A DNA stretch of 64,000 nt, taken from the IMG/VR virus record IMGVR_UViG_3300035670_010691, positions 44,915 through 108,914 of that record; one strand, 5' to 3'. A program made the translations under genes and the position numbers. Below the pieces are notes generated by a model, which was not told where the DNA came from, ran no database searches, and saw only the letters and a program-made list of their open reading frames with translations. The stretch comes from a virus. Within the stretch, counting starts at the first letter, position 1; each line of letters starts with the position of its first letter. Below are positions 39,601 through 63,571 of this stretch, one piece after another.

Positions 39601-41579
39601 AAGGTATTGATTATGTTGTTTGTCGGGAATGTGGTGAGAAGATGAAACAAGTTCAATACAGACATCTCCAATATAAACACAACATGACGTTGGAAGAATA
39701 CAGAAAAAAACATCCAAGTGCACAACTTGTCTGTGAAACTGCAAAAAGTATTGGTGATAAAAATCCAATGAAAAACACAGAGGTTAGAAAAAAACATCAA
39801 AAATCTGTATCATCTATTGAGTATAAACAAATGATGAGTGAACGGATGACAGGTGTGAACAAAGGAAATAAACGACCTGATTTAGAAAAACTAAACAAAG
39901 ATCCTAATTTTAGAAGAAAAATAAGTGAAGGTGTAAAACGTTCATATCAAAACAACCCAAGTCTTTTAGAAAACAGAACTAATTCGGGTAAAAAATATGG
40001 ATTTGGAAATCAAAAAACAAAAGAAAAAATAGCAAAGATAAAAGGTCACGTTAGTCCACAAGATAAAGACCCATTTTTATTCTATACCGAATTGGTTAGA
40101 AATAAAACAAATGAAAACTATCAAAAACATTTTGATAAAATAGAAAATGCTAAAAAACGAAGTAGAGATTTTCATTTAGATCACAAATACAGTATAAAAG
40201 AAGGATTTGATAATAATATTCCTGTTGAAGTGATTGCACATTATAAAAATCTACGAATACTTGATGGTAGATTGAATGAGAGTAAAGGATCGAAATCTTC
40301 AATAAAACTAAATGAACTCATTGTAGATATACAAAATTCAAATGATCCACTTGATAATAGAATACTTTTATTATGCGGTGGGGCGTACGGCCACATGGCT
40401 CATCCGTTTGATACAGAGATAAACTTAACTTTCGGTGACCTTAAAGATATTGCTAATCGTGCATTAGATGGAACACTTGAACTAACCACCGAGAAAACAG
40501 ACGGACAAGCACTTGCAATTTCTTGGAGAGATGATAGAGGTTTAATTGCTGCAAGAAACAAAGGACACCTTAAAAATCGTGGTGAAAGTGCATTGGATAT
40601 AAATGGTGTATCTGCTAAATTCCAAGGTCGTGGTGGTCTTTCAGACGCTTACAATTTTGCTATGAAAGACCTAACTAAAGCAATAAAAACTTTATCTCCA
40701 AAACAAAGAGAAAAGATTTTCCAAAATGGTAGTTCATTTATGAATTTAGAAGTCATTTACCCAACTTCGGTAAATGTTATTCCTTACGGTCAACCACTTC
40801 TTATTTTCCACGGAACAATGCAATATGACGAAAATGGAATTGCTGTTGGTGAAAATAAAGAAGCAGCAAGAATACTTGCAGGTATGATTAAACAAGTCAA
40901 CCAAGATGTTCAAGACAATTATACTATTCAAGGTCCACCCTTTATTCAATTACCAAAATCACAAACACTTTCTTCTAAAAAAGGAAAGTATTTAGGTCAA
41001 ATTCAAAAATTACAAAGTGAGTTTGGTTTAAAAGATACAGATGGAGTTGCAGAATATCATCAGGCCTGGTGGTCTAATTGGGTAGATAAAAACTCACCTG
41101 TCACATTAGACAATAAAACCAAAATGGGATTGGTTAAGAGATGGGCTTTTGGTGATAAATCTTTTAGTTTAAATAAAAACAATATACCTGACCAAAAATT
41201 ATTAGAGTGGGCACAAAAACACGAAAAAGACAACCATCAAAAAATTTCAAAAGATAATTTAATGAAATTTGAAAATATATTCTTGGGTCTTGGTGCAGAA
41301 GTATTAGAATTTACTTCATCTGCCCTAACTGTAAATCCTGATAAAGCAATTAGGGATATGAAACAAAGATTAGACCAAACTGCTAAGGATGTTCGCAAAT
41401 CAGGTGACCCTAAAAAAATAGCAAAACTTAAATTAGAATTGGAAAGATTAAACTCTATTGGTGGTCCATCTAAAATCGTTCCAATCGAAGGGATAGTTTT
41501 TCAATATAAAGGAAAAACGATGAAACTTACTGGTTCATTTGCTTCTCTCAACCAAATCTTGGGTATTTTTTACGGATGA
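36639..41579 (+). CDS. Giant multidomain protein: NMNAT-like, zinc ribbon, metallopeptidase, HD, HNH/NUMOD, ligase-like
   Basis: A 1646-residue protein with at least six parts. Residues 23 to 195: nucleotidyltransferase of the NMNAT/NadM type (GRFQPMHKGH at 29 to 38, ISGTETRN near 157). 421 to 443: zinc ribbon (Cys421, 424, 440, 443). 574 to 611: small YPKGGG-LGTH module. 650 to 770: zincin (HELIH at 687 to 691, a later Glu near 741). 860 to 985: HD phosphohydrolase (His895-Asp896 in HDIGKD). 989 to 1226: Cys/His finger, NUMOD-like GDKNPMKN, HNH-like LDHKYSI. 1240 to 1646: ligase-like nucleotidyltransferase (KTDG with Lys1286, late PIEGIVFQYKG). The parts are separated by (L/I)NE or LGE motifs after residues 199, 468, 778, 825, 988, 1214 and 1226, resembling prohead-protease sites, and the N-terminus (FLVEQILLED) resembles a capsid-targeting peptide. 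Confidence 0.8.
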   Translation: MNSLSNFLVEQILLEDKSPIKDVVVVYVGRFQPMHKGHYAVYEHLTKKFGKNNVFVGTSDKVEKDRSPFSFKEKQEIMYTMFGIPKNRIVNVKNPYAPTEVLKKYNEKTTAFVTVVGEKDKSRLGGKYFQKWDGEPTEGYDVRGYVYVAPSFGGGISGTETRNGLSLGSDEQKKDFFKNRVYGKYNEKIFRMITDKLNESFVIRKETIEEWLIKEHNHINGTLGFSDTGDMEVDDGPNSFLPNFEVFNKINVERAVRIGYDVLQKITMDVIEDYPIYPDGPVDAVSFYPAGVIGKLTTTNQVDYYNNDAYDEWYKHATRVAGQAGYQLVQTELEKIHGKEVEDQSEKDAINLKKYIEENINIPVKVGDTILTGRFKNKKVVVKNIGKDDHGMPTINGKKVVNFRLVKEGFIAELVGSTVDCQKCDHTWEIRPEDKTPYLCHLCGYDNQKMEFDYDEWNKWKEKEEINEVSSNGGYRADAGEPDPVFVTNGNIRKINSNKGRPEYWFENGGYTQLHFPKGDFPFGKGKGKDTESQQRVVKYKVKNVVKSTLPPPKSNDVNVEKIYETIKKVNGKYVVYPKGGGDRLGTHDTLSAAKKQLAAIEISKHKHESLFGGDGGMKPYEKLLMGGLVKFMQNTLGFSGKVVVKKKSSNSLFGDLSLSDAAMRGKITLHYNPNSSYEIMLKSLIHELIHAKQVAKGELKPSSDYKSLVWKGNPFISVKDYNNFQRKDINQYKKLPWEKEAYAGMDKYYRMFLNSKEFKELVGKDPNLDYILSNLNEVGIGTGQSGLRMGYPDKDQLKKRMKDVENQRKQTDSNKEFQYEPINEGQLEDLGITDFKSLFQKMPSDLQKRVYNLKNIEQRKDTHPEGNVLKHTITVVNRSLKDDDIDIAIAAMFHDIGKDETMGIHPTKGHITHFGHEKVSANLVSKYKNWIQSVGANPANVLYIVKNHMRYKELSNMRPKKQEKLKSFRAFDKLDKFSKHDRGGLGEGIDYVVCRECGEKMKQVQYRHLQYKHNMTLEEYRKKHPSAQLVCETAKSIGDKNPMKNTEVRKKHQKSVSSIEYKQMMSERMTGVNKGNKRPDLEKLNKDPNFRRKISEGVKRSYQNNPSLLENRTNSGKKYGFGNQKTKEKIAKIKGHVSPQDKDPFLFYTELVRNKTNENYQKHFDKIENAKKRSRDFHLDHKYSIKEGFDNNIPVEVIAHYKNLRILDGRLNESKGSKSSIKLNELIVDIQNSNDPLDNRILLLCGGAYGHMAHPFDTEINLTFGDLKDIANRALDGTLELTTEKTDGQALAISWRDDRGLIAARNKGHLKNRGESALDINGVSAKFQGRGGLSDAYNFAMKDLTKAIKTLSPKQREKIFQNGSSFMNLEVIYPTSVNVIPYGQPLLIFHGTMQYDENGIAVGENKEAARILAGMIKQVNQDVQDNYTIQGPPFIQLPKSQTLSSKKGKYLGQIQKLQSEFGLKDTDGVAEYHQAWWSNWVDKNSPVTLDNKTKMGLVKRWAFGDKSFSLNKNNIPDQKLLEWAQKHEKDNHQKISKDNLMKFENIFLGLGAEVLEFTSSALTVNPDKAIRDMKQRLDQTAKDVRKSGDPKKIAKLKLELERLNSIGGPSKIVPIEGIVFQYKGKTMKLTGSFASLNQILGIFYG
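39603..40290 (+). mobile_element. In-frame HNH/NUMOD homing-endonuclease-like module inside the giant gene
   Basis: Residues about 989 to 1215 of the 36639 protein look like a free-standing homing endonuclease fused in frame: a Cys-Cys-His-His finger (CRECGEK, then YRHLQYKH), a T-L-E-E-Y-R-K-K-H-P segment as in MucR-like fingers, NUMOD3-like GDKNPMKN and KISEGVKRSYQ helices, then an HNH-like DFHLDHKYSI with KNLRILDGRLNESKGSKS. Intein borders are absent (no N-terminal Cys/Ser block A at the junction, no His-Asn-Cys/Ser/Thr end) and the frame is uninterrupted, so this is a fusion and not an intron or intein. It lies exactly between the HD and ligase parts. Confidence 0.6.
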
Positions 41580-41580
41580 T

Positions 41581-43118: not shown

Positions 43119-43970
43119 ATGGATGAAATTCAAATAAATGCACTGAATAAGATAATTCATTTTTTGAAAACAAATACATTAGTAAAAGAAAAAAAATATT
43201 TTCCAAAAAATCCAAATAAAAAACTATCATTATGGAAAGAAATAACATCAAGTTTATATGTTGTTGGATTTCAAGATTTGGAACATTTTTTTATTGATGA
43301 AGCAAACAAACAGGGTTTTTCTATTTTATTAAATCATGTTAATCCAACCCACGTTTCAGAGTTGGATAATTTTTTAGAAGAAGAAAAAAATATTATTTTG
43401 GATTTATTTGAAAAAAATGATGTTGGACATGAACCTTTGATGGCAATTGGATGTCACACTTCTCATCTTGTAGCTTTGGAACATTTTTTGAAAAATACAA
43501 ATGATGATTTTGCATTTATTTTTGAAGAAGATTGTAAATTCAATTTTATTTTGAGTGATGAATATTTAATAGAATTAGGAAATTTGTTAAAAAGTGATTT
43601 GGGTAAAGATATAAATTTTTTACACTTAGGATATGAACATAGTCATAAAAATAATCTTTTTAATACAAAAAACTTTTCAATAAATTTACTAACTGACAAT
43701 AATATGACTCATTCGTATTTGATAAGTAGGGAACAAGCTAAAAAATTTTGTGATACTCATGATTTTACAAAACCAATCACCAAATTAAATGATTGGGTAT
43801 TTGAAAATTCAGAAACGTATGATAAAGTTAAAAATAAACAAGATATTATTTATAGAACACAGTGTGATGATTATTTTTCATACTTTTGTAAATGTCATGG
43901 TTTTAAAAAATCTGTTACTTTTCAGCAAAATATAGGAGAAAATTCAGAGAAAGGATTTAAGTATGTTTAA
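43119..43970 (+). CDS. Glycosyltransferase family 25-like protein, copy 2
   Basis: A 283-residue paralogue of the protein at 41581. YVVGFQDLEHFFIDEANKQGF near residue 45, IGCHTSHLVALEHFL near residue 108 and FAFIFEEDCKFNF near residue 131 are the GT25 motifs, with the acidic cluster E-E-D intact. MTHSYLISREQA near residue 197 and the ending ENSEKGFKYV parallel copy 1 (ENINIASQKGFKYLD). The two copies flank the Cys4 protein at 42440, suggesting duplication with or insertion around that gene. It overlaps the next gene by 8 bases. Confidence 0.7.
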   Translation: MDEIQINALNKIIHFLKTNTLVKEKKYFPKNPNKKLSLWKEITSSLYVVGFQDLEHFFIDEANKQGFSILLNHVNPTHVSELDNFLEEEKNIILDLFEKNDVGHEPLMAIGCHTSHLVALEHFLKNTNDDFAFIFEEDCKFNFILSDEYLIELGNLLKSDLGKDINFLHLGYEHSHKNNLFNTKNFSINLLTDNNMTHSYLISREQAKKFCDTHDFTKPITKLNDWVFENSETYDKVKNKQDIIYRTQCDDYFSYFCKCHGFKKSVTFQQNIGENSEKGFKYV

Positions 43971-50832: not shown

Positions 50833-51633
50833 ATGAAAATTTCAAAAAACAGATTAAGAGAGATTGTTAAAGAAGTTATTAAAGAAGAGTCAGAATACCA
50901 AGAGTTCTTCAAAAGAGCATTAGAAAAAACAGGTAAATCAATACCACAAATGTCTGATGAAGAGAAAAAGGCTTTCTTTGATAAAATTGAAGCTGCATGG
51001 AAAGGTAAAGGTGAGAAAAATGAAGGTAACGCATTTGGTGCTGCTGTTTCTCAAGCAAAAGAAGAAGGTGATGACTCGTTTGAGGTTGGTGGAAAAACAT
51101 TCAAAGTAAAAGAAGCAACAATGGGTGAATCTGAACTTCCTAATGTTGCTATCCCAAGTAGTGTAAAAACAAAGTTAAATTTGGCTATTGATAAAATTAA
51201 AGATAGTAAATTAACTTACCCACAAAAATTACAAGTGGTTGGTAAAATTATTGATAGTTTAGGTGTTGATAAACAAGAATTGACTAAAATGTCAAGTAGA
51301 TTAAGAGGAACTTTGGAATCCGTAGTAAACGAAGCAAAAGTAATTGTATATAATGAAAAAACTGGTGAACGATATGAGGTTTTATCTGGAAAGGGTAAGG
51401 GTGATTTGTTTATTGCTATGAAAGCTTTACAAAAAGTAGCCCCATCTCATATGAAATATTCTATCAAAGAATCCGTAGTAAAAGAAGGTGCTTCATCAGA
51501 AGAACTTCGTATGGCTAAAAACGCAATTAAAAACTTTGCAAGATATAGAAGAGTTCCAGGTGAACAAGCAATATATGACTTGATGAGAGCTCTTAAAGAT
51601 GTTGAAAGAGAATATAAACAAAAAAAGAAGTGA
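50833..51633 (+). CDS. Modular protein with prohead-protease-like linkers
   Basis: A 266-residue protein built of short modules. It begins with a basic helix (NRLREIVKEVIKEESEYQEFF), then a module AFGAAVSQAKEEGDDSFEVGGKTFKVKE (residues 67 to 94) that recurs in the 53497 protein (AFINAAKKAKEEGKTEFEFNGKTYPVTLKE). Linkers fitting a hydrophobic-x-E then A/G rule follow: VKE-A at 94, VVNE-A at 167 and VVKE-G at 218. I infer an internal head protein processed by the neighbouring protease. The gene overlaps a GTG-started small gene by 4 bases. Confidence 0.6.
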   Translation: MKISKNRLREIVKEVIKEESEYQEFFKRALEKTGKSIPQMSDEEKKAFFDKIEAAWKGKGEKNEGNAFGAAVSQAKEEGDDSFEVGGKTFKVKEATMGESELPNVAIPSSVKTKLNLAIDKIKDSKLTYPQKLQVVGKIIDSLGVDKQELTKMSSRLRGTLESVVNEAKVIVYNEKTGERYEVLSGKGKGDLFIAMKALQKVAPSHMKYSIKESVVKEGASSEELRMAKNAIKNFARYRRVPGEQAIYDLMRALKDVEREYKQKKK

Positions 51634-51806
51634 AAAAATTAGATGAAATACTTAACGAGTTGGTTTTGGAAGAGTTAGAAAAAAACCAAAACCTAAAAGA
51701 AGAAATCACGGGTGTTGATGAAGATAAAATCCGTGATTTAATTCGTTCAGAAGTTTCAGCAATATTTTTTGATTTATTTAAGAAACGTAAAATGTGGGGA
51801 GCGTAA
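51630..51806 (+). CDS. Small late protein with GTG start
   Basis: A 58-residue open frame that fills the gap before the protease gene. The GTG at 51630 overlaps the upstream stop (GTGA), and its TAA at 51804 is immediately followed by the protease ATG, so the gene fits the operon exactly. The product begins KKLDEILNELVLEELEK and ends IRDLIRSEVSAIFFDLFKK then RKMWGA. It is acidic first and amphipathic after, with the look of small prohead-core proteins of T4-like phages. It is easily missed because of its size and start codon. Confidence 0.65.
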   Translation: MKKLDEILNELVLEELEKNQNLKEEITGVDEDKIRDLIRSEVSAIFFDLFKKRKMWGA

Positions 51807-52400
51807 ATGAAACAACTTTTAATAGAAACAAATCTATTTGAAGGTAAAATAAATGAAGATGCAAGTGGTAGAACACTTGTTAAAGGAATTTTACAACGAG
51901 CAGGTGCAGAAAACCAAAATGGTAGAGTGTATCCAAAAGATATTTTAATGCGTGAAGCAAAGAAATATGAAACTCTTATTAATGAAAGAAGAGCACTTGG
52001 TGAATTAGACCACCCTGACTCATCAGTCATTAACTTAAAGAATGTATCCCACAATATTAAAGAAATTCACTGGGAAGGAAATGACTTGATGGGAACCGTA
52101 GAAATCCTTCCAACTCCAAGTGGAAACATTTTAAAAGAATTACTAAAAGCAGGTATCCTTCTTGGTATATCTTCCCGTGGTATGGGTTCAGTAAAACCAA
52201 TTGGAGAAAATAAGGTAGAAGTCGGTGAAGACTTTGAACTAATTGGCTGGGACTTTGTTTCTAACCCGTCAACACACGGAGCATTTATGGTTCCAGTAAA
52301 CGAAAGTGTAAATAGAGGTCAAATGATTGGGTCTGAGCAATGTGATATTTATTGTAAAGCACAAGACTTAATGAGAGAAATTATAACTGAATTAGGATAA
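51807..52400 (+). CDS. Prohead core protease (gp21-like)
   Basis: A 197-residue serine protease of the T4 gp21 type. GILQRAGAENQNGRVYPKDIL near residue 27 is the conserved opening. The catalytic His is in GELDHPDS (His69) and the nucleophile in GISSRGMGSV (Ser122 or Ser123). GWDFVSNPSTHGAFM near residue 147 closes the domain. T4 gp21 cuts core, scaffold and capsid proteins after (L/I)-x-E during head maturation and digests itself. Its own N-terminus (LFEGKINEDASG) contains a similar E-containing site. In this phage it lies directly upstream of several proteins rich in candidate sites. Confidence 0.9.
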   Translation: MKQLLIETNLFEGKINEDASGRTLVKGILQRAGAENQNGRVYPKDILMREAKKYETLINERRALGELDHPDSSVINLKNVSHNIKEIHWEGNDLMGTVEILPTPSGNILKELLKAGILLGISSRGMGSVKPIGENKVEVGEDFELIGWDFVSNPSTHGAFMVPVNESVNRGQMIGSEQCDIYCKAQDLMREIITELG

Positions 52401-52404
52401 AAAA

Positions 52405-52989
52405 ATGAGTAAATTTGATTTAGAAAAATATCTAAAAGAAAATAAAATCGGACTTGGTAAATATAAAACTACCGAAGGTGGTAAAGTTGCCAAAGGAGTT
52501 TCTGATGTCCGTAAAACGAATTACGATGTTCGTATTACCGAAGATGGTAAGTTAGACCTTTATACTCACAAATCAGTTATTGCTGAAGGTGGTAAAGTTC
52601 TTATCAGAGAAAATGAAGAAAGACCTCTTGCAACTGAAGTTAAAAGACACTTTTTAGAAATTATATCCACATACAAAGGTTTCCAAGAACAAATGCAAAG
52701 ACAAAGTGATATTGTTCAGACAGCAGAAACTTTGGGTGGTGTGGTTGAAGCAGCAAAAACTCTTACTCTTTCTGAAGCAGGTGATTGGTTTGATAAAGTC
52801 ACGGTGAAAAGAAATATGAGTGAGTTAGATAAGTTAGATAAAGCATTTGATAAAGTTGCTCAGGAAGCAAAATCATTAGACGAAAGATTACACGCACTTT
52901 ACGAAGATATGGGTAATATCCTCAATCGTTATTATGAAATCAGTGATATTGACCCCCTAACGATGAAAGAAAGATTAGGTCAAAAATGA
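52405..52989 (+). CDS. Hypothetical late protein, possible head component
   Basis: A 194-residue protein without a recognised family. The N-terminal 85 residues contain beta-like segments (NYDVRITEDGKLDLYTH) and the C-terminal half is helical, with ELDKLDKAFDKVAQEAKSLDERLHALYEDMGNILNRYYEI (residues 141 to 180) predicted as a long amphipathic helix. Candidate protease sites are V-I-A-E-G at residue 59 to 63 and L-S-E-A near 122. It lies 4 bases after the protease gene and overlaps the next by 4, as expected for a prohead component. Exact role unknown. Confidence 0.55.
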   Translation: MSKFDLEKYLKENKIGLGKYKTTEGGKVAKGVSDVRKTNYDVRITEDGKLDLYTHKSVIAEGGKVLIRENEERPLATEVKRHFLEIISTYKGFQEQMQRQSDIVQTAETLGGVVEAAKTLTLSEAGDWFDKVTVKRNMSELDKLDKAFDKVAQEAKSLDERLHALYEDMGNILNRYYEISDIDPLTMKERLGQK

Positions 52990-53177
52990 TAAAGTTAAAA
53001 GATATTATATCAGAAGAAGTTTTAGAGGAAAAGAATTGTCCTACTGATTCTTCAAAATGGTCGTATTGGAAAGGACAAGCAAAAAAGAAATTTGATGTAT
53101 ATCCTTCTGCTTACGCAAATGGCTGGGCTTCAAAACAATACAAAGCCGCCGGCGGTGCCTGGAAAAAATGTGATTAA
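52986..53177 (+). CDS. Small module protein with a capsid-targeting-like N-terminus
   Basis: A 63-residue protein. The first part, MIKLKDIISEEVLEE, resembles the T4 internal-protein targeting peptide (a short basic-hydrophobic stretch ending in hydrophobic-x-E). The rest, AKKKFDVYPSAYANGWASKQYKAAGGAWKK, is a module widely seen in tailed phages (K-F-D-V-Y-P-S-A-Y-A-N-G-W). Two Cys (residues 18 and 62) may bind metal or pair. I infer a small internal head protein. Function unknown. It overlaps the upstream gene by 4 bases. Confidence 0.6.
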   Translation: MIKLKDIISEEVLEEKNCPTDSSKWSYWKGQAKKKFDVYPSAYANGWASKQYKAAGGAWKKCD

Positions 53178-53185
53178 TATTTATA
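53176..53185 (+). promoter_or_regulatory. AATATTTATA box, possible late promoter
   Basis: One base different from TATATTTATA. It begins at the stop codon of the preceding gene and ends 3 bases before the ATG at 53189, the same tight spacing as the copy at 47112. Its weight rests on recurrence only. Confidence 0.3.
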
Positions 53186-53188
53186 ACT

Positions 53189-53455
53189 ATGAAAACAAAA
53201 TTAAAATTCTTATTAGAAGGTAATAGATACCAAGAACTTCGTAAATCCGAAGGAACTCCTAATCAAAAAATCGGAGTTGGTATTCGTAATATAAGAAAAC
53301 AACTTACAGAAATGGAAAAGTTTGTTGAGTGGTATTCCAAACTTAAAACTGAAAATGAATTAGGTAGAGATCAGTATTGGAAAAGAACCCAAAAACATTT
53401 ACACGGGGTCAGAGAAAGATTAATGTCTTTGTCAGAAAAAATAAGAAAACTTTAA
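53189..53455 (+). CDS. Small conserved phage protein
   Basis: An 88-residue helical protein. The N-terminus MKTKLKFLLEGNRYQEL ends its basic-hydrophobic start in L-L-E-G, a fit to the prohead-protease rule. The remainder, EGTPNQKIGVGIRNIRKQLTEMEKFVEWYSKLK then YWKRTQKHLHGVRERLMSLSEKIRKL, is a helical-hairpin pattern I associate with T4-like marine phages (E-G-T-P-x-Q-K-I-G). Likely an internal or structural head protein. It is followed by a 41-base gap that ends in an AAGGA Shine-Dalgarno-like element before 53497. Confidence 0.6.
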   Translation: MKTKLKFLLEGNRYQELRKSEGTPNQKIGVGIRNIRKQLTEMEKFVEWYSKLKTENELGRDQYWKRTQKHLHGVRERLMSLSEKIRKL

Positions 53456-53496
53456 GGTAAAAACAATTTAGATTAAATTTAAAAAGGAACAAACTA

Positions 53497-56196
53497 ATGC
53501 CAGCAGTATCACAACAACAACAAAAGATTTTCGGTTTAGCCCTTTCAGTTAAAAGGGGTGAAACTCCTCGTTCAGAAGCATCCCAAGAAGTATTAGATAT
53601 TGTTGATTCTATGACAGAAAAAGACATAGAAGATTTTGCTGGAACAGAACACAAAGGACTTCCTAAAAAAGTAGAACAAAAACTTCGTGAAAAAATTAGA
53701 GAAATTATAAAAAATAATATTAACGAAGTTAGTGAACCCCAAATCATAACACAACTCAAAGATGTTTTAAAAACCGGGTACAAATCTATTAAAGACCCAA
53801 AAACCGGTAAAAAAATGAAAGTAGATAGGTATTCAGCATCCGCAATCGTTGGTGTATATGATAAACTCAATCAATCAAATAAAGAGAAATTTGCTCAACA
53901 AGGTCTTCTAAAAATGCAATCAATTGCATTTAAATTATTGAAGAATGAATCTGTAGTAAGTGAAGGTATTTGGCCGAAATCAAAATTGAGTCCAAGATTT
54001 GAATTTCTATTAGCTCCTGAATTAAAAAAGAAATTTAAAGGCACTTTCCATGTTGATGGGTATGATTTATATCATAATAATAAAATGATTATGAGAATAG
54101 ATAGAGATAAAGATTCCGTAAATTCAATCGTAAATCATATAAGTAGGAATCGTTCAATCCAAAAAAACGAATCAGTAAACGAAGCATCCGATGATTACGA
54201 TTATGCAGGCGAATTACAAGACGCAGTTGAAAAGACATTAAAAGGAAAAAACATTAAAGGATGGAGATTAGATGTAGATTCTCGTTCCGGTACATTTGAA
54301 TATACTAAAAAAGGTATTGATTTAGTAGTATATGCAACTCCAATGTGGGATGGTAACAAGTTTGTTCCATTCAACGTACAAGATATGGAAGGTGATGATG
54401 TTGATATGATACAGAGAGTAATTGGAAACAGATTGACATTCAAACCAACATATGATGTAAAGAAAGATGTTTCTAACTATATTTCAGTAGTAACAAAAAC
54501 ATTAGCAAAAGTAGAACAAGTTTATAGTAAATTAAATATAAAAGGAAACACTCCGGGTGATGTGGGAATGAGAGCATCAATGAAAGACAATGTTGAAAGA
54601 TTGAAAAACGAATCCGTAGTAAACGAACTTAAAAAACTTCCAAACGGAAATTTCTCAATCAAAAAAGGATACAACACCTTTGCTGATTACGAAAAGAACG
54701 CGAAACCAGGCGATACTATCTTAAAGTATGGCAAAAGAGGTAATATGATTAAAACTTTTGTAAATGGTAGTGAATTAAACCAAAATGCTAAAAAGTATTT
54801 AAGTAAGGTTCATAGTATTGTAGGTGATAAAGTAAACCTATCTTTATTTGGAAAGCAAGGAATTTCAACTATACCTGATTATGAAAAGAAAGAAGTTGGT
54901 GTATTAGTATTGGAATCCATAGTAAGTGAAAGGAAACCAAGTAAAATAGTTTGGGATACTAAAAAAATCTCGGATGCAAAAAGAATCAATGTTAGAAAGT
55001 GGTATATGAAAACTTATCCTACCGATGAACTTGGTGGTGAAATAGACAAAAGAATTTCATTATGGGATGTTTACGAATACTTATCACAGGGTCGTGATGC
55101 ATATAAAATTATTGGTGTTGGTGATAGTGTTGTAAGAGAAAGAATATTTGAAAAACTATCTAAGGTCCTTGGTGTTGATTACGATACCATTTACAATATG
55201 TGGGAATCTGTAATAAACGAATTATCTTACGCAGATGGTCCTGCAGTAGGTTGGATTAAAAAGAAAAATGGTAAAAAAGAAGTTGTAAAGGTATTCAATA
55301 CATATAGAGGTGCTTTAATGTGGCAAGCAAAAACAGGATTGAAACTTCTTCACAGAGGCGAAGTTCAAACTGTTGGAGTAGCAAATCAAGAACAATGGGA
55401 AAAACACAAAGCTCAATTCCCAAATCAGTATGTAGAATCCGTAGTAAACGAAGCAGAAAAACCAAAAGTAGTAACCAAAGCAGAGTGGGATAGAACTCAC
55501 AAAGATTTTAAAGGTATGGTAGATGGTAAACCATATATGATGTGGTTAGATAAAAAAACACAAGAAACTATATATGGTCCAGTCACTATAAAAGAAGGGG
55601 TAGTAAGTGAAGGTAAATATGATGATATTTTAGATAAAATACAAAACACAATTCAAAATGCGTCATCTTTTATGAATGTAGGAAAAGAGTTGAAAAACGC
55701 AGGTATTAAATATGATTTTTCAACTTCTATGATACCGATGTATAGAATTAAAGTACCAGGAAACACGATTGCTATTGTTAATAAACGATATGCCGCTGAT
55801 GCTGAAAGAGAAGTGAAAGATATGGCAATTGGTTTATTAGAAGGAAAATTTTTACAAGAAGGACGTGCCTTTATTAACGCAGCTAAAAAAGCAAAAGAAG
55901 AAGGTAAGACAGAGTTTGAGTTTAATGGTAAAACCTATCCTGTAACACTTAAAGAGAATATGATAAACGAGATGAATGATGCTGAGTTTGTGGCAGACCA
56001 ATTAGTAAATCCTGTGGCGGATGGTAGTATGAGTAGAAGTGAGTTTATCAATTTTGTTAGTAAAGAAACAAAGTTTGATAGAAACTCACTTGGTAAAGTA
56101 TATGACGCTTATTTCAAACTTGGTGGTAGAGACAGAGTAAAATTAGATATTACAAAAAACGCACTTTTATTTTTATCAAAATTTGGAATTAAATAA
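53497..56196 (+). CDS. Beads-on-a-string polyprotein 1 (putative internal head protein precursor)
   Basis: An 899-residue chain of about 11 short unrelated modules. Module 1 (1 to 77) resembles DUF3008 proteins (KIFGLALSVKRGE, AGTEHKGLPKK). The modules are separated by linkers with a hydrophobic-(N/S/Q)-E end after residues 77, 156, 229, 377, 478, 575, 652, 705, 788 and 825: NESVVSE, NESVNE, NESVVNE, LESIVSE, WESVINE, VESVVNE, KEGVVSE, FLQE and NMINE. The next residue is usually A, G or L. This matches the T4 gp21 rule (L/I/V-x-E) and the protease gene lies nearby, so I infer cleavage into many small internal proteins. A module at 789 to 818 is shared with the 50833 protein. An AAGGA lies 9 bases before the ATG. 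Confidence 0.75.
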   Translation: MPAVSQQQQKIFGLALSVKRGETPRSEASQEVLDIVDSMTEKDIEDFAGTEHKGLPKKVEQKLREKIREIIKNNINEVSEPQIITQLKDVLKTGYKSIKDPKTGKKMKVDRYSASAIVGVYDKLNQSNKEKFAQQGLLKMQSIAFKLLKNESVVSEGIWPKSKLSPRFEFLLAPELKKKFKGTFHVDGYDLYHNNKMIMRIDRDKDSVNSIVNHISRNRSIQKNESVNEASDDYDYAGELQDAVEKTLKGKNIKGWRLDVDSRSGTFEYTKKGIDLVVYATPMWDGNKFVPFNVQDMEGDDVDMIQRVIGNRLTFKPTYDVKKDVSNYISVVTKTLAKVEQVYSKLNIKGNTPGDVGMRASMKDNVERLKNESVVNELKKLPNGNFSIKKGYNTFADYEKNAKPGDTILKYGKRGNMIKTFVNGSELNQNAKKYLSKVHSIVGDKVNLSLFGKQGISTIPDYEKKEVGVLVLESIVSERKPSKIVWDTKKISDAKRINVRKWYMKTYPTDELGGEIDKRISLWDVYEYLSQGRDAYKIIGVGDSVVRERIFEKLSKVLGVDYDTIYNMWESVINELSYADGPAVGWIKKKNGKKEVVKVFNTYRGALMWQAKTGLKLLHRGEVQTVGVANQEQWEKHKAQFPNQYVESVVNEAEKPKVVTKAEWDRTHKDFKGMVDGKPYMMWLDKKTQETIYGPVTIKEGVVSEGKYDDILDKIQNTIQNASSFMNVGKELKNAGIKYDFSTSMIPMYRIKVPGNTIAIVNKRYAADAEREVKDMAIGLLEGKFLQEGRAFINAAKKAKEEGKTEFEFNGKTYPVTLKENMINEMNDAEFVADQLVNPVADGSMSRSEFINFVSKETKFDRNSLGKVYDAYFKLGGRDRVKLDITKNALLFLSKFGIK

Positions 56197-56197
56197 A

Positions 56198-58921
56198 ATG
56201 AATCTTTCAAAACTTTTACCTTATCTAAATCAAGAATCAAAGGATAATTTAGACATGATGAATAAAATGGGAATTAAATTAGGACAAGTTGTATCTGATC
56301 CGAGAGTAAAAGTTTTTGGTAAAGTGAATGAAGCTGAAGATGATAAATATACTCATATTGGGTATGGTAAGTACAAATTAAAAGGTAAAGAGGATGATGA
56401 GAACTCCCCAACATTTACCAAAGACGATACTGGTAAATATATTCCTACCAAATCTGATAAAGGTGGTAAAGGTCAAGAAAAACCAAAGGTAAACATCTTT
56501 GATAAACCAAAATCTGATGGAATGGATACTGTTAAATCAATTGCAGCAAAAACTGGATTGAGAGCACAGGCACTTGCAGGTTGGGCAGATGAAAATGGGG
56601 TTAATTTATCAAAAGTATCGGATGCTATTAATTCCAAGAAGTTAAAACCAATGGATTTAATGACAGCTATATCAGGAAATCCTGGAAACAAATATGCAAA
56701 AGATATTATTGCAAAATATTCGCAATCAAACGATACTAAATCAGATACAACAAAGGTTCCTTCAAGTAAATTAACAGATGTTCTTCCAAAAGCTAATCCC
56801 GAAACTTTTGAAAAACCATCAGATATAAACAAAATACCTGATAGTCAAAAATTGGAAGTTTCAATGAAGATTGATAAGTTAGCAGAATTAGCAAAACAGG
56901 CAAAAGAAAAAGGAGAAGCTGCTCCTAATTTTAACCTTTGTGAAATTACTATTCCAGGAACCAATTTATATTGTGAAGGAAATGCTGGTATTCCTCGTGA
57001 ACAAATGCCACAATTTAAAGGAACACCAACACCTGGATCACCCGCAGATAAATTACCAAGAGATAATTCTGGTGAAGTAGATACAGAACCAATGTTCCGT
57101 GCAATGTTAAAGAAAAATGGAATCAAAACGGTAGAAACAGAACTTCCATCAGATAGACTTAAAGCAACTCAAAGTGAATTGGTAGGTGCAAAAGTAGCAG
57201 GAATGACAAAGGCGTTAGAAAAAGACCCCAACCACCCAGCAATTACCGCACCAATTTATGTTAGTAGAGATGGGTATGTAGTAGACGGTCACCATCGTTG
57301 GGCGGCAATGACTTCATATGCAATGAAAAGTGGTAAACCTGCAAACATGAGAGTTATCGTTATAGACAAAGATATAAATGAGGTAATACCAATGTCAAAT
57401 AAATTTGCAGAAGATATAGGGGTTGCTGCCAAGAAAGCACAAACTCAAAAAGAAATTAAAAAGGCATTTAAAGAAATTATAGAACTAACAAGGTCTTATG
57501 TAAACGAACAAGAAGAAGGTCAGGTAAATGTCGGTGGATATGAAACACAACACTTTGATGTTTGTCCTGCTGCAACCGCACTTTACAAAGACATAGAGTC
57601 CAAAGGAGTGGATATGGACTTGGCTTCAAGAACAGCGAAACTACAAGATGTTCTTTTCTTTATTGAAAAACACGTCCAAGAACAAGGGTATAAACCAAAT
57701 CCATATTATGGTAAAGTTGCACAAATTCTTGGTGATCAAATTATGACAATGGGTGGTATGATGGAGTTAGGTTCAGAGCACTCATATATTCAAGGACATA
57801 TAGATAAAATACAATCAGCAGTTGAAAATAATTCTATAAAAGAAGCTTCAGAAAAAACAATTGTAAACCCTGAAACTGGTAAGAGAATTAAAGTTTCAAC
57901 CGCATTATCTTACGATAAAAAACATCCTGCATATAAAGCAGCATCAAAACTTTCATCAAAATCTGCACCAAAAAAATCAAGTTATGAAAGAGGTGACACG
58001 GTTAGAATTATCAGTAACCCTAAATTTGTAACTGATAAAAACTTTTGGGGTAAGGCAGGATACGTTAAAAACACCATGGGTAGGGATGTAATGGTGACAT
58101 TCCCTAATGGTAGAACAATTATAGTAGATCCAAGGGACTTACAACCAATTGCAAACGAATCCGTAAACGAAGCAGCAAAACCTTCACAAGTTCGTTCTGT
58201 TATTTCAAGAGTTAAAAAAGACTTGATGAAAAAGTGGAAACAAAAAGGTGGATACGAAAACTTTGGTGATAAAGAAGGTGATATGTTGAGAAAAAAGTTT
58301 AACTTCAATCCATATGGTTCATCAGAGGAAAGAGAAATTGCACAAATGATTCAAGGTTTTGAAGAGTGGGCAATTAATTACGATGGTAATATGAGAGAAA
58401 CCGTAAACGAAGCAAAAGCAATAAGTGGTGGTAAAATACACAAATTCATCACAGGTAAAAACCTCATATATAAGGGGAAGAAATATCCTGATATAGAATT
58501 TGAATTATTGGGTATTGATAATTCTAATCAGTTAGTAAATTTAAAAGTTTTATTCCCAAAAAATATTTTCGGACAAGAAATGAAAGTTCCATTCAAATCA
58601 ATCCGTAGAGGTGGTTTCATCAAAACAGATACTTCCAAAGTAAACGAATCATCAAACTACGAAGTTTATCATAAAAGTTATACATCAGCTATTGATACAG
58701 CATTAGAATATGCAAAGAAAAAAGGATTCACAACAGATCCCGAAGAAGTAGCTGATTTAGTTGGATTGCAATCAAGAAGACCAGGTAAAGGTAAAACTAC
58801 AAGAGTTTCTATTCCACTTTACAAAAACGGAAAACCACAAAGAGCTGGACTTCAAATAGTTGTTTATGGTATGGATGGTAATTCTTCAAGACCATATGAA
58901 TTGACAACTTACATAAGATGA
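56198..58921 (+). CDS. Beads-on-a-string polyprotein 2, with a ParB-like domain
   Basis: About 907 residues from ATG 56198, 1 base after the previous stop. Linkers of the same kind occur after residues 45 (KVNE-A), 395 (DINE-V), 437 (YVNE-Q), 549 (SIKE-A), 658 (ESVNE-A), 738 (ETVNE-A) and 817 (KVNE-S). Residues about 290 to 395 form a ParB/sulfiredoxin-like domain with the DGHHRWAA motif at 363 to 370. Residues about 596 to 650 look like a KOW beta domain (YERGDTVRII, GRDVMVTFPNG). The last module (YEVYHKSYTSAID to QIVVYGM) recurs in many phages. I infer a second cleavable precursor of internal head proteins. Confidence 0.72.
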   Translation: MNLSKLLPYLNQESKDNLDMMNKMGIKLGQVVSDPRVKVFGKVNEAEDDKYTHIGYGKYKLKGKEDDENSPTFTKDDTGKYIPTKSDKGGKGQEKPKVNIFDKPKSDGMDTVKSIAAKTGLRAQALAGWADENGVNLSKVSDAINSKKLKPMDLMTAISGNPGNKYAKDIIAKYSQSNDTKSDTTKVPSSKLTDVLPKANPETFEKPSDINKIPDSQKLEVSMKIDKLAELAKQAKEKGEAAPNFNLCEITIPGTNLYCEGNAGIPREQMPQFKGTPTPGSPADKLPRDNSGEVDTEPMFRAMLKKNGIKTVETELPSDRLKATQSELVGAKVAGMTKALEKDPNHPAITAPIYVSRDGYVVDGHHRWAAMTSYAMKSGKPANMRVIVIDKDINEVIPMSNKFAEDIGVAAKKAQTQKEIKKAFKEIIELTRSYVNEQEEGQVNVGGYETQHFDVCPAATALYKDIESKGVDMDLASRTAKLQDVLFFIEKHVQEQGYKPNPYYGKVAQILGDQIMTMGGMMELGSEHSYIQGHIDKIQSAVENNSIKEASEKTIVNPETGKRIKVSTALSYDKKHPAYKAASKLSSKSAPKKSSYERGDTVRIISNPKFVTDKNFWGKAGYVKNTMGRDVMVTFPNGRTIIVDPRDLQPIANESVNEAAKPSQVRSVISRVKKDLMKKWKQKGGYENFGDKEGDMLRKKFNFNPYGSSEEREIAQMIQGFEEWAINYDGNMRETVNEAKAISGGKIHKFITGKNLIYKGKKYPDIEFELLGIDNSNQLVNLKVLFPKNIFGQEMKVPFKSIRRGGFIKTDTSKVNESSNYEVYHKSYTSAIDTALEYAKKKGFTTDPEEVADLVGLQSRRPGKGKTTRVSIPLYKNGKPQRAGLQIVVYGMDGNSSRPYELTTYIR

Positions 58922-59457
58922 TAAAATTAAAATCTCTTATATCAGAAGATAAAGTATCAGGTGGTCTATCTGATAATATGTCTTTATCTGACATTGCAAA
59001 AAAACATAATGTATCAGTAGAAGAACTCAATAAAGAGTTTGAAATGGGTATGAAAGTAGAAATGGAACATACCACAGATAAAGAGATAGCTAAAGAAATA
59101 GCAAAAGACCACTTATTTGAAGACCCAAAATACTACACTAAATTAGCAACCATAGAAACCAACGAAGACCTCCGTAATTGGTTTAAATCTAAATGGGTAA
59201 ACATCGGTAAAAAAGTAGATGGTAAACACCCACCTTGTGGAACAAGTGGTGAGAAAAGTGGGTATGCTAAATGTGTTCCTGCATCAAAAGCAGCAACAAT
59301 GTCCAAAAAAGAAAAAGAAAGTGCAACACGTAGAAAACGTGCAGCACAAAATAAAGCAAACAGAGGTGGAGTTGATTCACCAGGTCAAGGAAAAAAACCT
59401 ATTAATGTTTCAACCCATCCCTATGGTAAAAAATCAGGAACAGGAAAAGGTTCATAA
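58918..59457 (+). CDS. Modular late protein with capsid-targeting-like N-terminus
   Basis: A 179-residue protein in three parts. MIKLKSLISEDKVSGG parallels MIKLKDIISEE of the 52986 protein, again ending in I-S-E. Residues 20 to 78 (SLSDIAKKHNVSVEELNKEFEMGMKVEMEHTTDKEIAKEIAKDHL) match a DUF5661-like helical module (E-x-G-x-x-V-E-x-E-H-T-x-D-x-x-x-A-x-x-I-A-x-D-H-L). Residues 90 to 179 hold the module WVNIGKKVDGKHPPCGTSG then YAKCVPASKAATMSKKEKESATRRKRAAQNK, seen in many phages. It overlaps the polyprotein gene by 4 bases. I infer a virion internal protein. Confidence 0.62.
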   Translation: MIKLKSLISEDKVSGGLSDNMSLSDIAKKHNVSVEELNKEFEMGMKVEMEHTTDKEIAKEIAKDHLFEDPKYYTKLATIETNEDLRNWFKSKWVNIGKKVDGKHPPCGTSGEKSGYAKCVPASKAATMSKKEKESATRRKRAAQNKANRGGVDSPGQGKKPINVSTHPYGKKSGTGKGS

Positions 59458-59478: not shown

Positions 59479-59694
59479 ATGGCACAAAACGTAGCAGTAA
59501 TCGTAAGAAAAGGTGATTTAAATAGAGCACTTAAAATTTTTAAAAGAAAAGTCAGTGAATTAGGTATTCTTGAAGAATATAAATCAAAACAAGAATATAT
59601 CAAACCAACCACAAAAAGAAGAGAAGCAAAAAAGGCTGCAAAAAGAGCTCAACAATTAGAAGTCATTAAAAATAAACCCAAAGCAAAAATATAA
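59479..59694 (+). CDS. rpsU: Ribosomal protein bS21
   Basis: A 71-residue basic protein matching bacterial S21 over its whole length: VAVIVRKGDLNRALKIFKRKVSELGILEEYKSKQEYIKPTTKRREAKKAAKR. The features are an N-terminal strand, a helix with R-A-L-K/R-x-F-K-R, a G-I/V-L then a K-P-T/S-x-K-R-R basic tail. S21 sits near the anti-Shine-Dalgarno end of 16S rRNA and affects initiation. Phage copies are known in some marine and very large phages and are thought to bias host ribosomes toward phage messages. It sits among late genes. The capsid and polyprotein genes here do have AAGGA-type Shine-Dalgarno elements. Confidence 0.9.
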   Translation: MAQNVAVIVRKGDLNRALKIFKRKVSELGILEEYKSKQEYIKPTTKRREAKKAAKRAQQLEVIKNKPKAKI

Positions 59695-60638: not shown

Positions 60639-60788
60639 TCTATAATAACCTAATTCATTTAGGTTTAATCATATTATTTGGTTAGTGAATACCCTCCCAT
60701 CTAATGAGCGGTGAACGAAAAACCTATAATTCAATTTAATATTGAAATTCCTAATAATTTCACACGCAAAACCAAAAAGGTAATAATA
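60639..60788 (+). promoter_or_regulatory. Structured 5' leader of the scaffold-capsid operon
   Basis: A non-coding leader of about 150 bases, among the longest here. Pairings visible by eye: AACCTAA (60647 to 60653) with TTAGGTT (60659 to 60665); TTCAAT (60730 to 60735) with ATTGAA (60741 to 60746); and a longer-range stem GCG plus TGAA (60708 to 60715) with TTCA plus CGC (60759 to 60767) enclosing the second hairpin. A purine-rich AAAAAGG lies 8 bases before the ATG. The frame is open back to a GTG at 60711, but the ATG at 60789 gives the expected scaffold N-terminus. No known riboswitch was recognised. Confidence 0.5.
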
Positions 60789-61931
60789 ATGGCAAATTCA
60801 AAATTATTAAAAGAAGCAATTGCTGACGCAAAAGCTGTACGTGAGACTGCCATCGCTAACGCCAAAATCGCTCTTGAAGAAGCGTTTACTCCAAGACTTC
60901 AATCAATTCTTTCACAGAAGCTTCGTGCTGAAATGGAAGGTGATGAAGAGGAAGTAGAACTTGAAGAAGAATACGGTGCAGACGATGTTTCTGCAGCAGA
61001 CTCTTCTGAACTCGGAGCAGGTGAAGGTGATACAGAATCCGGTACAGACAATGCTGAACCAAAAAGTGGCGCAGTACAGTCAGCCACCGACGCTCATACA
61101 AAATTAGATCCTGAAACTGATTCAGAAACAGCAGAACCTGGCAAAGAAGATGAAAATATGCCAATCGCTGAAGGTGATGATGAAGAAGAAATGTATGAAG
61201 AAGAAGGTGAAGAAGAAGTATACGAAGAAGAAGACGAAGACGAACTCGACCTTGAATCAATCATTCGTGAATTAGAATCAGAACTTGAAGATGATGATGA
61301 CGATGATGAAGAAGAAATGGAAGAAGACGTTGATGATGTTGATGTTGTAAACAAAGCAGGTACAGACGCACTTGCATACAACGAAGAAGAGGAAGAAGAA
61401 GTTCATACAGAGGAAGAACACGAAGAAGAGTTATCTGAAGAAGATGACGAAGAAGAAATCGACCTCGAAGAAATTCTTCGCGAAATGGGATACGGTGAGG
61501 ATGAAGAAGAAGTAACAGAAGAAGAGGAAGAAGACCATTCAGCTCATGTAGCAGAAATGGAAGACGAACTCGAAGAAGCTTACAAAACTATTCGTTCACT
61601 AAAATCTACAATCAACGAAGTTAATCTTCTAAACGCTAAACTTCTATATGCAAACAAATTATTCCGTTCTTATAACTTAACAAACGAACAAAAAATGAAA
61701 GTTGTTGAGACATTAGACAGAACAGGAAATGTTCGTGAAGTAAAATTAGTTTATAGCACACTTGCTGAATCTTTCAAATACACAGGTTCAGTTTCAAGAA
61801 AACCAAAAACAAAAATAACCGAATCATACGCATCAAAAGCAGTTCGTTCAACCGCTCCGAAAAAAGAAATTATTTCAGAGAGTAGCAATGCTTTAGCAGA
61901 AAGATTCAAAAAACTTGCTAATATCAAATAA
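60789..61931 (+). CDS. Prohead core scaffolding protein (gp22-like)
   Basis: About 380 residues from ATG 60789. The N-terminus (NSKLLKEAIADAKAVRETAIANAKIALEEAFTPRLQSIL) is a pattern conserved in gp22 proteins of marine T4-like phages. The middle (residues about 45 to 260) is extremely acidic, with long runs of Glu and Asp, and the C-terminal third is helical (ESFKYTGSVSRKPKTK, then LAERFKKLANIK). T4 gp22 forms the core around which the capsid assembles and is destroyed by gp21 to peptides. Its gene lies directly before the capsid gene, the usual order. The acidic repeats make codon-level repeats of GAAGAA that can be mistaken for tandem repeats. Confidence 0.82.
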   Translation: MANSKLLKEAIADAKAVRETAIANAKIALEEAFTPRLQSILSQKLRAEMEGDEEEVELEEEYGADDVSAADSSELGAGEGDTESGTDNAEPKSGAVQSATDAHTKLDPETDSETAEPGKEDENMPIAEGDDEEEMYEEEGEEEVYEEEDEDELDLESIIRELESELEDDDDDDEEEMEEDVDDVDVVNKAGTDALAYNEEEEEEVHTEEEHEEELSEEDDEEEIDLEEILREMGYGEDEEEVTEEEEEDHSAHVAEMEDELEEAYKTIRSLKSTINEVNLLNAKLLYANKLFRSYNLTNEQKMKVVETLDRTGNVREVKLVYSTLAESFKYTGSVSRKPKTKITESYASKAVRSTAPKKEIISESSNALAERFKKLANIK

Positions 61932-61951: not shown

Positions 61952-63571
61952 ATGGCAAATTTCGATTTATCAAAACTTATGGCAGGCAAGAATCCACAAG
62001 CAGTAATGCTTCAGGAAACTCGTCAACTTCGCAATAAGTGGGAAAAAACAGGTCTTTTAGAAGGACTTGCAGAGAGAGAACAATCTCAAATCTCTGTTCT
62101 TTTAGAAAACCAAGCAAAGCAATTACTTGATGAGGCAACTCAAACAGGTACATCTGCTGGTTCAGAAGAGTGGTCAGGCGTTGCCCTTCCACTTGTAAGA
62201 CGTATCTTTGGTGAAATTGCAGCGAAAGAATTCGTTTCAGTTCAACCAATGAACTTACCATCAGGTCTTATTTTCTATCTAGACTTCAAATACGGTTCAG
62301 GTCAACCAGGTAACCCATCATTCGTATCACAATCACTTTTCGGTGGTACAGGTGCAGACCTTGGTTCAACAGACTCAGCTGTAAATGGTCTTTATGGTGA
62401 AGGACGTTATGGTTATTCAGTAAACGATCAAGCAGTAACAGTAGCATCTGGTTCTTATACAGTTGCAACTGCTTCTTGGGCAGAAGTTGGTTACGATGCA
62501 TCACTTTCCGCATCCGTAGCTGCTAACCAATTAGCAAAAATCACAGTTGCTGGTGGTCAGTTCACACGTCCAGACCTTGAGTCAGTACGTTCATTCTACA
62601 TTTCATCATCTGCATTCGCAGCTGCTGATACATTCTATCCTGCACACTCTGACAAATCAGGTACAAGTGCAGTATTCTACGCAAAAGTAACAGACTTAAC
62701 AAGTGCAACATCTTCACTTGCTATCAATTATTCACAACAACCAGTTGCTGAAAATCGTGGTGACTTCGAAGACAGAAATCCAGTTGTAGGTGGTTCTTCA
62801 CCTGCAGGTACAGCTCTTGATATTCCTGAAATCGACCTCGAACTTCGTTCAGAAGCTATCGTAGCGAAAACAAGAAAACTCAAAGCAGTATGGACACCTG
62901 AATTAGCTCAAGACTTGAATGCATATCACTCAATCGACGCTGAAGCTGAATTAACATCAATGCTTTCTGAGTACATTTCACTTGAAATCGACCTCGAAAT
63001 CCTTGATATGTTAAAGACAAATGCTCTTACAACAGAGTATTGGTCAGTTTCTATCGGTGAAGAGTACAACTCTGCAACAAGTGCTTGGGTAGCTGCTACA
63101 AACGCACAGGCTTACACTAAAAACACATGGTTCCAAACACTTGGTGCCAAAATTAACAAAGTATCCAACAAGATTCACCAATTAACACTTCGTGGTGGTG
63201 CTAACTTCATCGTTGCATCTCCTGATGTATGTACAATTCTTGAGTCAATTCCAGGATTCGTTGTTAATGCTGACAAAGACGCAATGTCTTATGCAGCTGG
63301 TGTAACACAAATTGGTGCTATGTCAAACAGATACCAAGTTTACAAAAACCCATACATGACTTCTAACGAAATCTTGTTAGGTTTCCGTGGAAATAACTTC
63401 CTCGAAACAGGTGCTGTTTACGCTCCATACGTACCGCTTATCATGACACCGTTGGTATATGACCCAACAAACTTCACACCAAGACGCGGCGTGATGACAA
63501 GATACGCTAAGAAGATGGTTAGGCCAGAATTTTATGGTCGTATCTTCATTAAAGATTTGGCTAACGTCTAA
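61952..63571 (+). CDS. Major capsid protein (gp23-like)
   Basis: The 539-residue HK97-fold capsid subunit. The N-terminal 61 residues are a removable delta domain, and LLDE at 58 to 61 followed by ATQTGTSAG is a good match to the prohead-protease site of T4 gp23 (which is cut after Glu65). EEWSGVALPLVRRIFGEIAAKEFVSVQPMNLPSGLIFYLDFKYG (residues 72 to 115) and AVWTPELAQDLNAYHSIDAEAELTSMLSEYISLEIDLEIL are strongly conserved in gp23. An AAGGAGAG lies 8 bases before the ATG, the best Shine-Dalgarno in the window, as expected for the most abundant protein. Codons are GC-richer than elsewhere. Confidence 0.95.
   Translation: MANFDLSKLMAGKNPQAVMLQETRQLRNKWEKTGLLEGLAEREQSQISVLLENQAKQLLDEATQTGTSAGSEEWSGVALPLVRRIFGEIAAKEFVSVQPMNLPSGLIFYLDFKYGSGQPGNPSFVSQSLFGGTGADLGSTDSAVNGLYGEGRYGYSVNDQAVTVASGSYTVATASWAEVGYDASLSASVAANQLAKITVAGGQFTRPDLESVRSFYISSSAFAAADTFYPAHSDKSGTSAVFYAKVTDLTSATSSLAINYSQQPVAENRGDFEDRNPVVGGSSPAGTALDIPEIDLELRSEAIVAKTRKLKAVWTPELAQDLNAYHSIDAEAELTSMLSEYISLEIDLEILDMLKTNALTTEYWSVSIGEEYNSATSAWVAATNAQAYTKNTWFQTLGAKINKVSNKIHQLTLRGGANFIVASPDVCTILESIPGFVVNADKDAMSYAAGVTQIGAMSNRYQVYKNPYMTSNEILLGFRGNNFLETGAVYAPYVPLIMTPLVYDPTNFTPRRGVMTRYAKKMVRPEFYGRIFIKDLANV

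Follow-up and report, generated by a model that had tools for sequence, protein, structure and literature searches.

The closest described systems are the internal proteins of phage T4, IPI, IPII and IPIII, and Alt, which are products of variable cargo genes and are processed by the prohead protease gp21, a protease that cleaves after L/I-x-E (PMC9026906). In T4, one gene makes one internal protein with one leader; the targeting sequence of IPIII is its first 10 residues, and processing is set by residues 8 and 10 (PMC9026906). The T4 scaffold proteins gp22, gp67 and gp68 are likewise cut by gp21, each into several fragments, which are mostly removed from the head (PMC9026906). In phiKZ/SPN3US, the gp21-family proteases gp175/gp245 follow an x-x-Glu-type rule, act on many head substrates and make several cuts in long propeptides; according to the available part of the source (PMC10052503), these N-terminal propeptides are removed to leave one mature protein each, and serial release of modules is not reported there. 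DarB of phage P1 and related head-internal proteins are very large and carry an N-terminal capsid signal, and the accessible portion of PMC9024508 does not describe repeated linkers or a chain of modules in them. Finally, the polyvalent proteins of phages and conjugative elements are large, comprise several domains and travel with the DNA; DdrB-like ParB domains occur in them and processing by an internal metallopeptidase domain has been proposed for them. Iyer et al. (2017; PMC5512222) likened them to viral polyproteins. Thus a gp21-type protease, leader-targeted internal proteins and the comparison of polyvalent proteins with polyproteins are already known, and a search of the open full-text literature found no polyprotein with prohead-protease sites between its modules and module exchange at these sites.

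The locus analysed here lies in a window of 64,000 nucleotides (44915-108914 in a viral contig of 108.9 kb; G+C 29.5%), which by gene order and Pfam matches contains a T4-like head block (Table 1). Two polyproteins, PolyA and PolyB, and the single-module genes at 52986 and 53189 are encoded between the Peptidase_S77 protease gene and the scaffold-like gene, while p50833 is encoded immediately upstream of the protease gene. The open reading frames had been described correctly from the letters alone (266 residues at 50833, 899 at 53497 and 907 from the ATG at 56198), and so had the gp21-like gene, which ends 1.1 kb before the start of PolyA. A protease of the gp21 family is thus encoded inside the head gene block, as would be expected if the linkers were its substrates. 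As in the T4 internal protein system, the locus combines such a protease with aliphatic-x-Glu sites, variable cargo genes and, on single-module genes, short leaders whose residue 8 is aliphatic and residue 10 is Glu; unlike in T4, many modules share one reading frame, a site is predicted between modules, and the joints are re-used for module exchange. PolyA, PolyB and p50833 gave no Pfam or PHROG match to IPI-III or Alt, nor to the core proteins gp22, gp67 and gp68, and they do not have the acidic composition of a scaffold; with these core proteins they share several gp21 cuts (here predicted) in one protein, whereas those scaffold proteins lack shuffled, separately conserved modules. Like polyvalent proteins, these products of the structural region combine several distinct domains, but the sites here are predicted to serve a separate prohead protease. 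A gene for ribosomal protein S21 (59479-59694; PF01165, E 4.9e-15) also lies inside the head block, as it does in that of Microcystis phage Mel-JY01, and PADLOC detected no defence-related family.

Table 1. Features of the head gene block and predicted modules of the polyproteins. Positions refer to the window unless a related locus (L number) is named; residue ranges are in parentheses.
Feature	Position	Strand	Basis, relatives
Candidate third precursor, 1646 aa, upstream of terminase	36639..41579	+	NMNAT-like nucleotidyltransferase, HExxH, HD domain, ligase-like KTDG module
Terminase-like gene	44649		Head block
Portal	47984		PF07230
p50833, predicted small precursor, leader helix MKISKNRLREIVKEVIKE	50833..51633	+	Modules end at ESVVNE (162-167), ESVVKE (213-218)
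Prohead protease, gp21-like (Peptidase_S77), predicted linker cutter	51807..52400	+	PF03420 E 3.8e-27; phrog_207 E 3.3e-51; conserved among relatives
Single-module gene, leader MIKLKDIISE	52986..53177	+	Module is C-terminal part of longer L016 protein
Single-module gene, leader MKTKLKFLLE	53189..53455	+	Module is C-terminal part of 431-aa L016 protein
PolyA, 899-aa polyprotein	53497..56196	+	About 10 predicted sites, 11 predicted products
PolyA module 1 (1-80), DUF3008	53497..53736	+	PF11450 E 2.7e-13
PolyA module 2 (81-156), ends ESVVSE	53737..53964	+	Also within L041, L011 polyproteins
PolyA module 3 (157-229), ends ESVNE	53965..54183	+	Linker count; no homologue found
PolyA module 4 (230-377), ends ESVVNE	54184..54627	+	Behind ESVNE in L003 polyprotein; L052 single gene with 12-aa leader MKNIKLKSLLKE
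PolyA module 5 (378-478), ends ESIVSE	54628..54930	+	Relative L059:4057-4611 after leader MIKLKELLSE
PolyA module 6 (479-575), ends ESVINE	54931..55221	+	85% identity in L002, L005; flanks there ESVVNE and ESV/INE
PolyA module 7 (576-652), ends ESVVNE	55222..55452	+	Module comparison
PolyA module 8 (653-705), ends EGVVSE	55453..55611	+	Module comparison
PolyA module 9 (706-788), ends FLQE	55612..55860	+	L078, L022, L032, order differs
PolyA module 10 (789-825), ends ENMINE	55861..55971	+	91% identity in L032, L005, L002 after SLTE, YVNE, ESVNE respectively
PolyA module 11 (826-899)	55972..56193	+	No homologue found
PolyB, 907-aa polyprotein	56198..58921	+	About 6 predicted sites, 7 predicted products
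PolyB 46-437, after KVNE↓AEDD; ParB/sulfiredoxin-like domain 181-437	56333..57508	+	phrog_2859 E 2e-19; phrog_2159 E 8e-4; AlphaFold2 model
PolyB module (438-549), ends SIKE, with more tentative boundaries	57509..57844	+	Module comparison
PolyB module(s) (550-658), end ESVNE	57845..58171	+	Module comparison
PolyB module (659-738), ends ETVNE	58172..58411	+	L026, L035, L011, L015 behind other modules
PolyB module (739-817), ends KVNE	58412..58648	+	L036 after GGGISE, L093 after QGLSE, L081 after KIMKE
PolyB last module (818-907)	58649..58918	+	L055 after ESVNE, L059 after ESLNE
p58918, leader MIKLKSLISE, DUF5661 domain and DUF5872-like tail	58918..59457	+	PF18905 E 1.1e-16
Acidic scaffold-like protein, gp22 position	60711..61931	+	Precedes capsid gene; acidic composition; homologues likewise placed
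Major capsid protein, gp23-like	61952..63571	+	PF07068 E 2.6e-76; maturation cut predicted after residue 61 (LLDE↓ATQ)
Polyproteins with differing module content, two different metagenomes	L002:9389-11731; L005:5169-7229

Altogether, our results favour, with a probability that we put at about 0.77, a reading of mechanism and ALTERNATIVES in which PolyA, PolyB and p50833 are precursors of internal capsid proteins that are cut by the prohead protease. In this model, the precursors would be incorporated into the prohead core as the head is built, probably via an N-terminal element, for example the DUF3008 module or a leader helix, and the gp21-like protease would cut after the last Glu of (V/I/L)-x-E linkers, in most cases ESV(V)NE followed by Ala or Gly, thereby releasing approximately 20 modules, most of them of about 40-150 residues, that would stay with the DNA and probably be injected into the host. 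The near-invariant 15-18-bp linker DNA would in addition serve as a joint for the gain, loss and swap of modules, such that an insertion at a joint would place a module in frame and with its own processing site. The sequence-only reading had proposed such a precursor system; protease-site matches and module shuffling now speak for it, while for cleavage, packaging and injection we infer from established T4 biology. It had not noted three further features treated below: the linkers as DNA joints, the single genes that carry the same modules behind capsid-targeting-like leaders, and a large candidate precursor at 36639-41579, beyond the stretch that it covered.

The linker repeat itself is far from chance. 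The strict form E[SGT][VI]{1,2}[NS]E occurs seven times in PolyA, twice in PolyB and once in p50833, and this total of 10 compares with 0.04 expected in shuffled sequences (P ≤ 0.0002). Earlier counts of about ten linkers in PolyA and seven in PolyB were too high for the strict form and come close, at about 10 and 6, once looser (V/I/L)-x-E sites are included (PolyA residues 80, 156, 229, 377, 478, 575, 652, 705, 788 and 825; PolyB residues 45, 437, 549, 658, 738 and 817). The looser sites at PolyA 80 and 788 and at PolyB 45 and 817 are module boundaries in other phages too, while those at PolyB 437 and 549 are weaker. Because the generic (ILVM)-x-E motif is not enriched in PolyB (13 versus 12.8 in shuffles) and only slightly in PolyA (22 versus 15.6), the signal is carried by the specific linker. 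A degenerate-codon search of the whole 108.9-kb contig for ES[VI]NE and a six-residue form gave exact matches at eight places, each of them on the + strand and inside PolyA, PolyB or p50833, and none on the reverse strand or with a reversed-pattern control. In the non-core proteins of about 170 head loci, no 5-mer recurs in more different contexts than ESVNE, with 81, and it has 83 occurrences in head-cassette proteins versus five in approximately twice as much other protein.

Several lines of comparison strongly support the idea, put forward in the sequence-only reading, that the linkers are protease sites. The T4 rule had been said to fit the capsid protein, and it does at LLDE↓ATQ (arrow, predicted cut); in relatives, the capsid sites have L, I, V or M at P3 and E at P1 (LDE and IDE, more rarely MLE, IKE, VTE, VSE and others) followed by A, S, T or a similar residue. 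Valine at P3, as in the linker, is outside the T4 consensus, yet it is present at capsid sites of these relatives. Among 36 ESVNE variants in cassette proteins that differ at P3, V is replaced by I in 26, by L in 7, by M in one and by other residues in two, while P1 changes at about the background rate (0.42 versus 0.28 per 10,000 residues), and P1' is A in 40% and G in 28% of cases, together 68%. Modules that stand behind unrelated sequence keep the aliphatic-x-E motif followed by a small residue, as in GGGISE↓ANAV, KIMKE↓AFAV, QGLSE↓AFAV, ESLNE↓ANDL and EEPVNE↓GPST. The proposed sites thus have the aliphatic-x-Glu form with a constant Glu that is typical of gp21-family substrates, although P3 is not aliphatic at some boundaries, including GKGEKNE↓G in p50833. 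In a broad unfiltered logo of all alignment starts, P3 enrichment was weak (0.36 versus 0.28), as it was swamped by acidic scaffold proteins; linker-projected sites and the substitution counts were therefore used, and since they were chosen after this logo they are to be weighed together with it. At projected sites without ESV, the motif was found exactly in 292/777 and within three residues in 471/777 versus 24% at random positions, in a list that is not free of false positives, among them p49785 homologues and positions within leader helices.

The modules between these sites are exchanged among phages. Searches of viral contigs gave 173 related loci, nearly all of them T4-like head regions, and at least 100 related genes in other aquatic phages carry modules strung by the linker. 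By capsid protein, the closest named isolates are Microcystis phage Mel-JY01 (53.5%) and Flavobacterium phage immuto (51.7%); the 780-residue L002 polyprotein and p50833, used as queries, matched nothing in 50,697 phage records, which gave no cultured linker-bearing member; nor was a virion proteome found for this phage or for another with the linkers. Within the scaffold-like protein of immuto (L176:9955-11196), a stretch of about 55 residues (EGFEQWLDSVSAQMDKFG...) is duplicated almost exactly. Over all loci, two or more linkers are present in each of at least 114 non-redundant reading frames, and these comprise at least 440 modules of at least 239 families. With linkers masked before alignment, 107-109 of 141 linkers had an alignment end no more than six residues away, as opposed to 16-33 of 111-126 identically masked decoys, and rotating the linkers gave 53 expected versus 133 observed. 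Among 22 families with at least four members, the left neighbour varies in 13 and the right neighbour in 16, with at least two different ones in each case; in one family, present at 12 loci, there are 10 different neighbours on the left and eight on the right. Homologues of PolyA modules 5-7 are few among the compared loci. The predicted shuffling of modules between conserved linkers is strongly supported by the boundaries, neighbours and orders seen in the alignment of relatives.

Modules also exchange with single genes that bear leaders. A leader of about ten residues ending in aliphatic-x-E is present in the genes at 52986, 53189 and 58918 and absent from PolyA, which starts with DUF3008, and from PolyB, which has an unrelated N-terminus; leaders with L, I, V or M at position 8 and E at position 10 occur in 76/465 cassette genes versus 29/616 others. 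Modules found as single genes follow leaders such as MKNIKLKSLLKE↓S, ..EEPVNE↓G and MIKLKELLSE. The genes at 50632 and 53189 correspond to opposite ends of one 431-residue protein in L016, the DUF5661 part of p58918 lies inside proteins of 1350-1430 residues in L007 and L010, and the last module of p50833 (48 residues) recurs elsewhere behind other upstream sequences and, in L034, as a gene of its own. In L163, a polyprotein (L163:1287-3293) has internal leaders, one of which includes the start Met (MKITKSQLREMIREEIQKLNE↓S), and it therefore likely reads as a fusion of leader-bearing genes. ESVNE probably derives from the last residues of a capsid-targeting leader at the N-terminus (EELQSVNE, EELSKVNE), upon fusion of such genes. 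In the 484-kb phage LR756508 (L177), positions 3804-5880 hold five consecutive small genes, each with an N-terminal basic helix of the MKxxKLRKIIREE type, and this run looks like a single-gene counterpart of the polyproteins.

The candidate third precursor has the candidate sites LNE↓S, PINE↓G and ISE↓G and a ligase-like module (GGAYGHMAHPFD...EKTDGQ). Relatives of some of its domains in L007 and L010 sit in one protein with ParB and DUF5661 modules of the kind present in PolyB and p58918. Because it contains HExxH, which is absent from PolyA, PolyB and p50833, it is a closer fit to the polyvalent proteins. NMNAT proteins have been detected in virions of cyanophages (PMC9602691). Two glycosyltransferase family 25-like genes (41539-42402 and 43119-43970, the second below the Pfam cut-off) adjoin this gene.

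Nearly all modules are without a functional assignment. The ParB-like domain suspected from the sequence is real: PolyB 181-437 matches phrog_2159, and its AlphaFold2 model (pLDDT 78.5) has a predicted sulfiredoxin/ParB-like fold, with sulfiredoxin 3cyi and ParB-N 5k5d as the closest solved folds (E ~0.01) and an E value of 2e-29 against the viral ParB/sulfiredoxin model A0A6J5MIF4. A DUF3008 protein of 69 residues, gp93 from the cyanophage S-SCSM1, carries a virion-protein annotation, and virion proteins in that study were assigned by mass spectrometry (PMC9602691). The predicted fold of p50833 is poor (pLDDT 53, pTM 0.24), with only the last module (~222-264, pLDDT ~80) folding well. Partial Pfam matches to RNase_J_C (PolyA 681-731) and DUF2760 (PolyB) had no single stretch that passed, and we regard them as spurious.

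The linker is conserved beyond the minimal L/I-x-E motif, with Glu at P5, Ser at P4 and a marked codon choice, and cleavage alone does not explain this. The 101 distinct occurrences of ESV(V)NE DNA use only 17 spellings, and 44 of the occurrences read GAATCAGTAAACGAA; Val is encoded by GTA in 95% (44% overall) and Asn by AAC in 65% (28% overall). L002 and L005 are 99.2% identical over 6 kb and yet differ by whole modules, that is, by the gain of one module, an extra-module block and a further insertion, with joints within or beside linker DNA. We consider an assembly artefact an unlikely source of these differences, as the loci come from different metagenomes and the frames are open; the 18-23-bp repeats could mislead assembly in single cases. 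Between related polyproteins, 203/276 breakpoints lie within 15 nt of a linker versus 12.4% of random positions, a count in which not all breakpoints are independent because reciprocal pairs are included, and we infer that recombination uses short linker homology. Restricted spelling, codon choice and breakpoints would all be expected if the linker were mainly a selfish or mechanistic DNA repeat, a recombination hot spot whose peptide has no role, but we consider this very unlikely. In the first locus set, 92/93 linker-DNA matches lie on the coding strand in the single frame that translates as ESV(V)NE, from which it follows that the peptide matters; in a second scan of viral contigs, some of which are shared with the first set, 135/148 of the matches listed are in frame, and 60/97 in-frame loci among the matches listed have a head-cassette homologue on the same stretch. 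Moreover, P3 changes are conservative and P1 is fixed.

Conservation past P3 and P1 could be a sign that the linkers remain uncut, as flexible joints or as docking peptides for scaffold or shell in long polyvalent proteins that are injected whole, and large multi-domain injected proteins are indeed known (PMC5512222), some being packaged uncut (N4 vRNAP). That Glu at P1 and an aliphatic P3 persist where all other linker residues are different, and that single-gene leaders and the capsid propeptide end in the same motif, makes this quite unlikely. If the linkers are cut, cutting might instead serve to shred core or scaffold proteins for exit from the head, in the way of T4 gp22, gp67 and gp68, and the location of the polyprotein genes between the protease and the scaffold and capsid genes would suit this explanation. 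We find it unlikely because modules are kept as units, at about 30-91% identity, in different orders and also as single genes; internal modules are domain-sized, with a median of 81 residues (quartiles 67-111 over all loci); one of them has a predicted ParB/sulfiredoxin fold; and a separate acidic scaffold-like gene is present at 60711.

The precursor reading combined with the properties of the joints leads to a suggestion towards which we lean slightly: that one and the same linker works as a prohead-protease site in the protein and as an in-frame recombination joint in the DNA, by which T4-like phages that infect uncultured aquatic bacteria can add, lose or exchange single injected proteins while packaging and processing are kept. 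If true, this would explain how many small injected proteins come from few genes in uncultured T4-like phages, and it would give a simple rule for finding them, namely to cut at (V/I/L)-x-E linkers. It would also provide a large set of candidate host-takeover or anti-defence proteins of about 80 residues. Protease sites that coincide with recombination joints would represent a testable mechanism of rapid cargo turnover.
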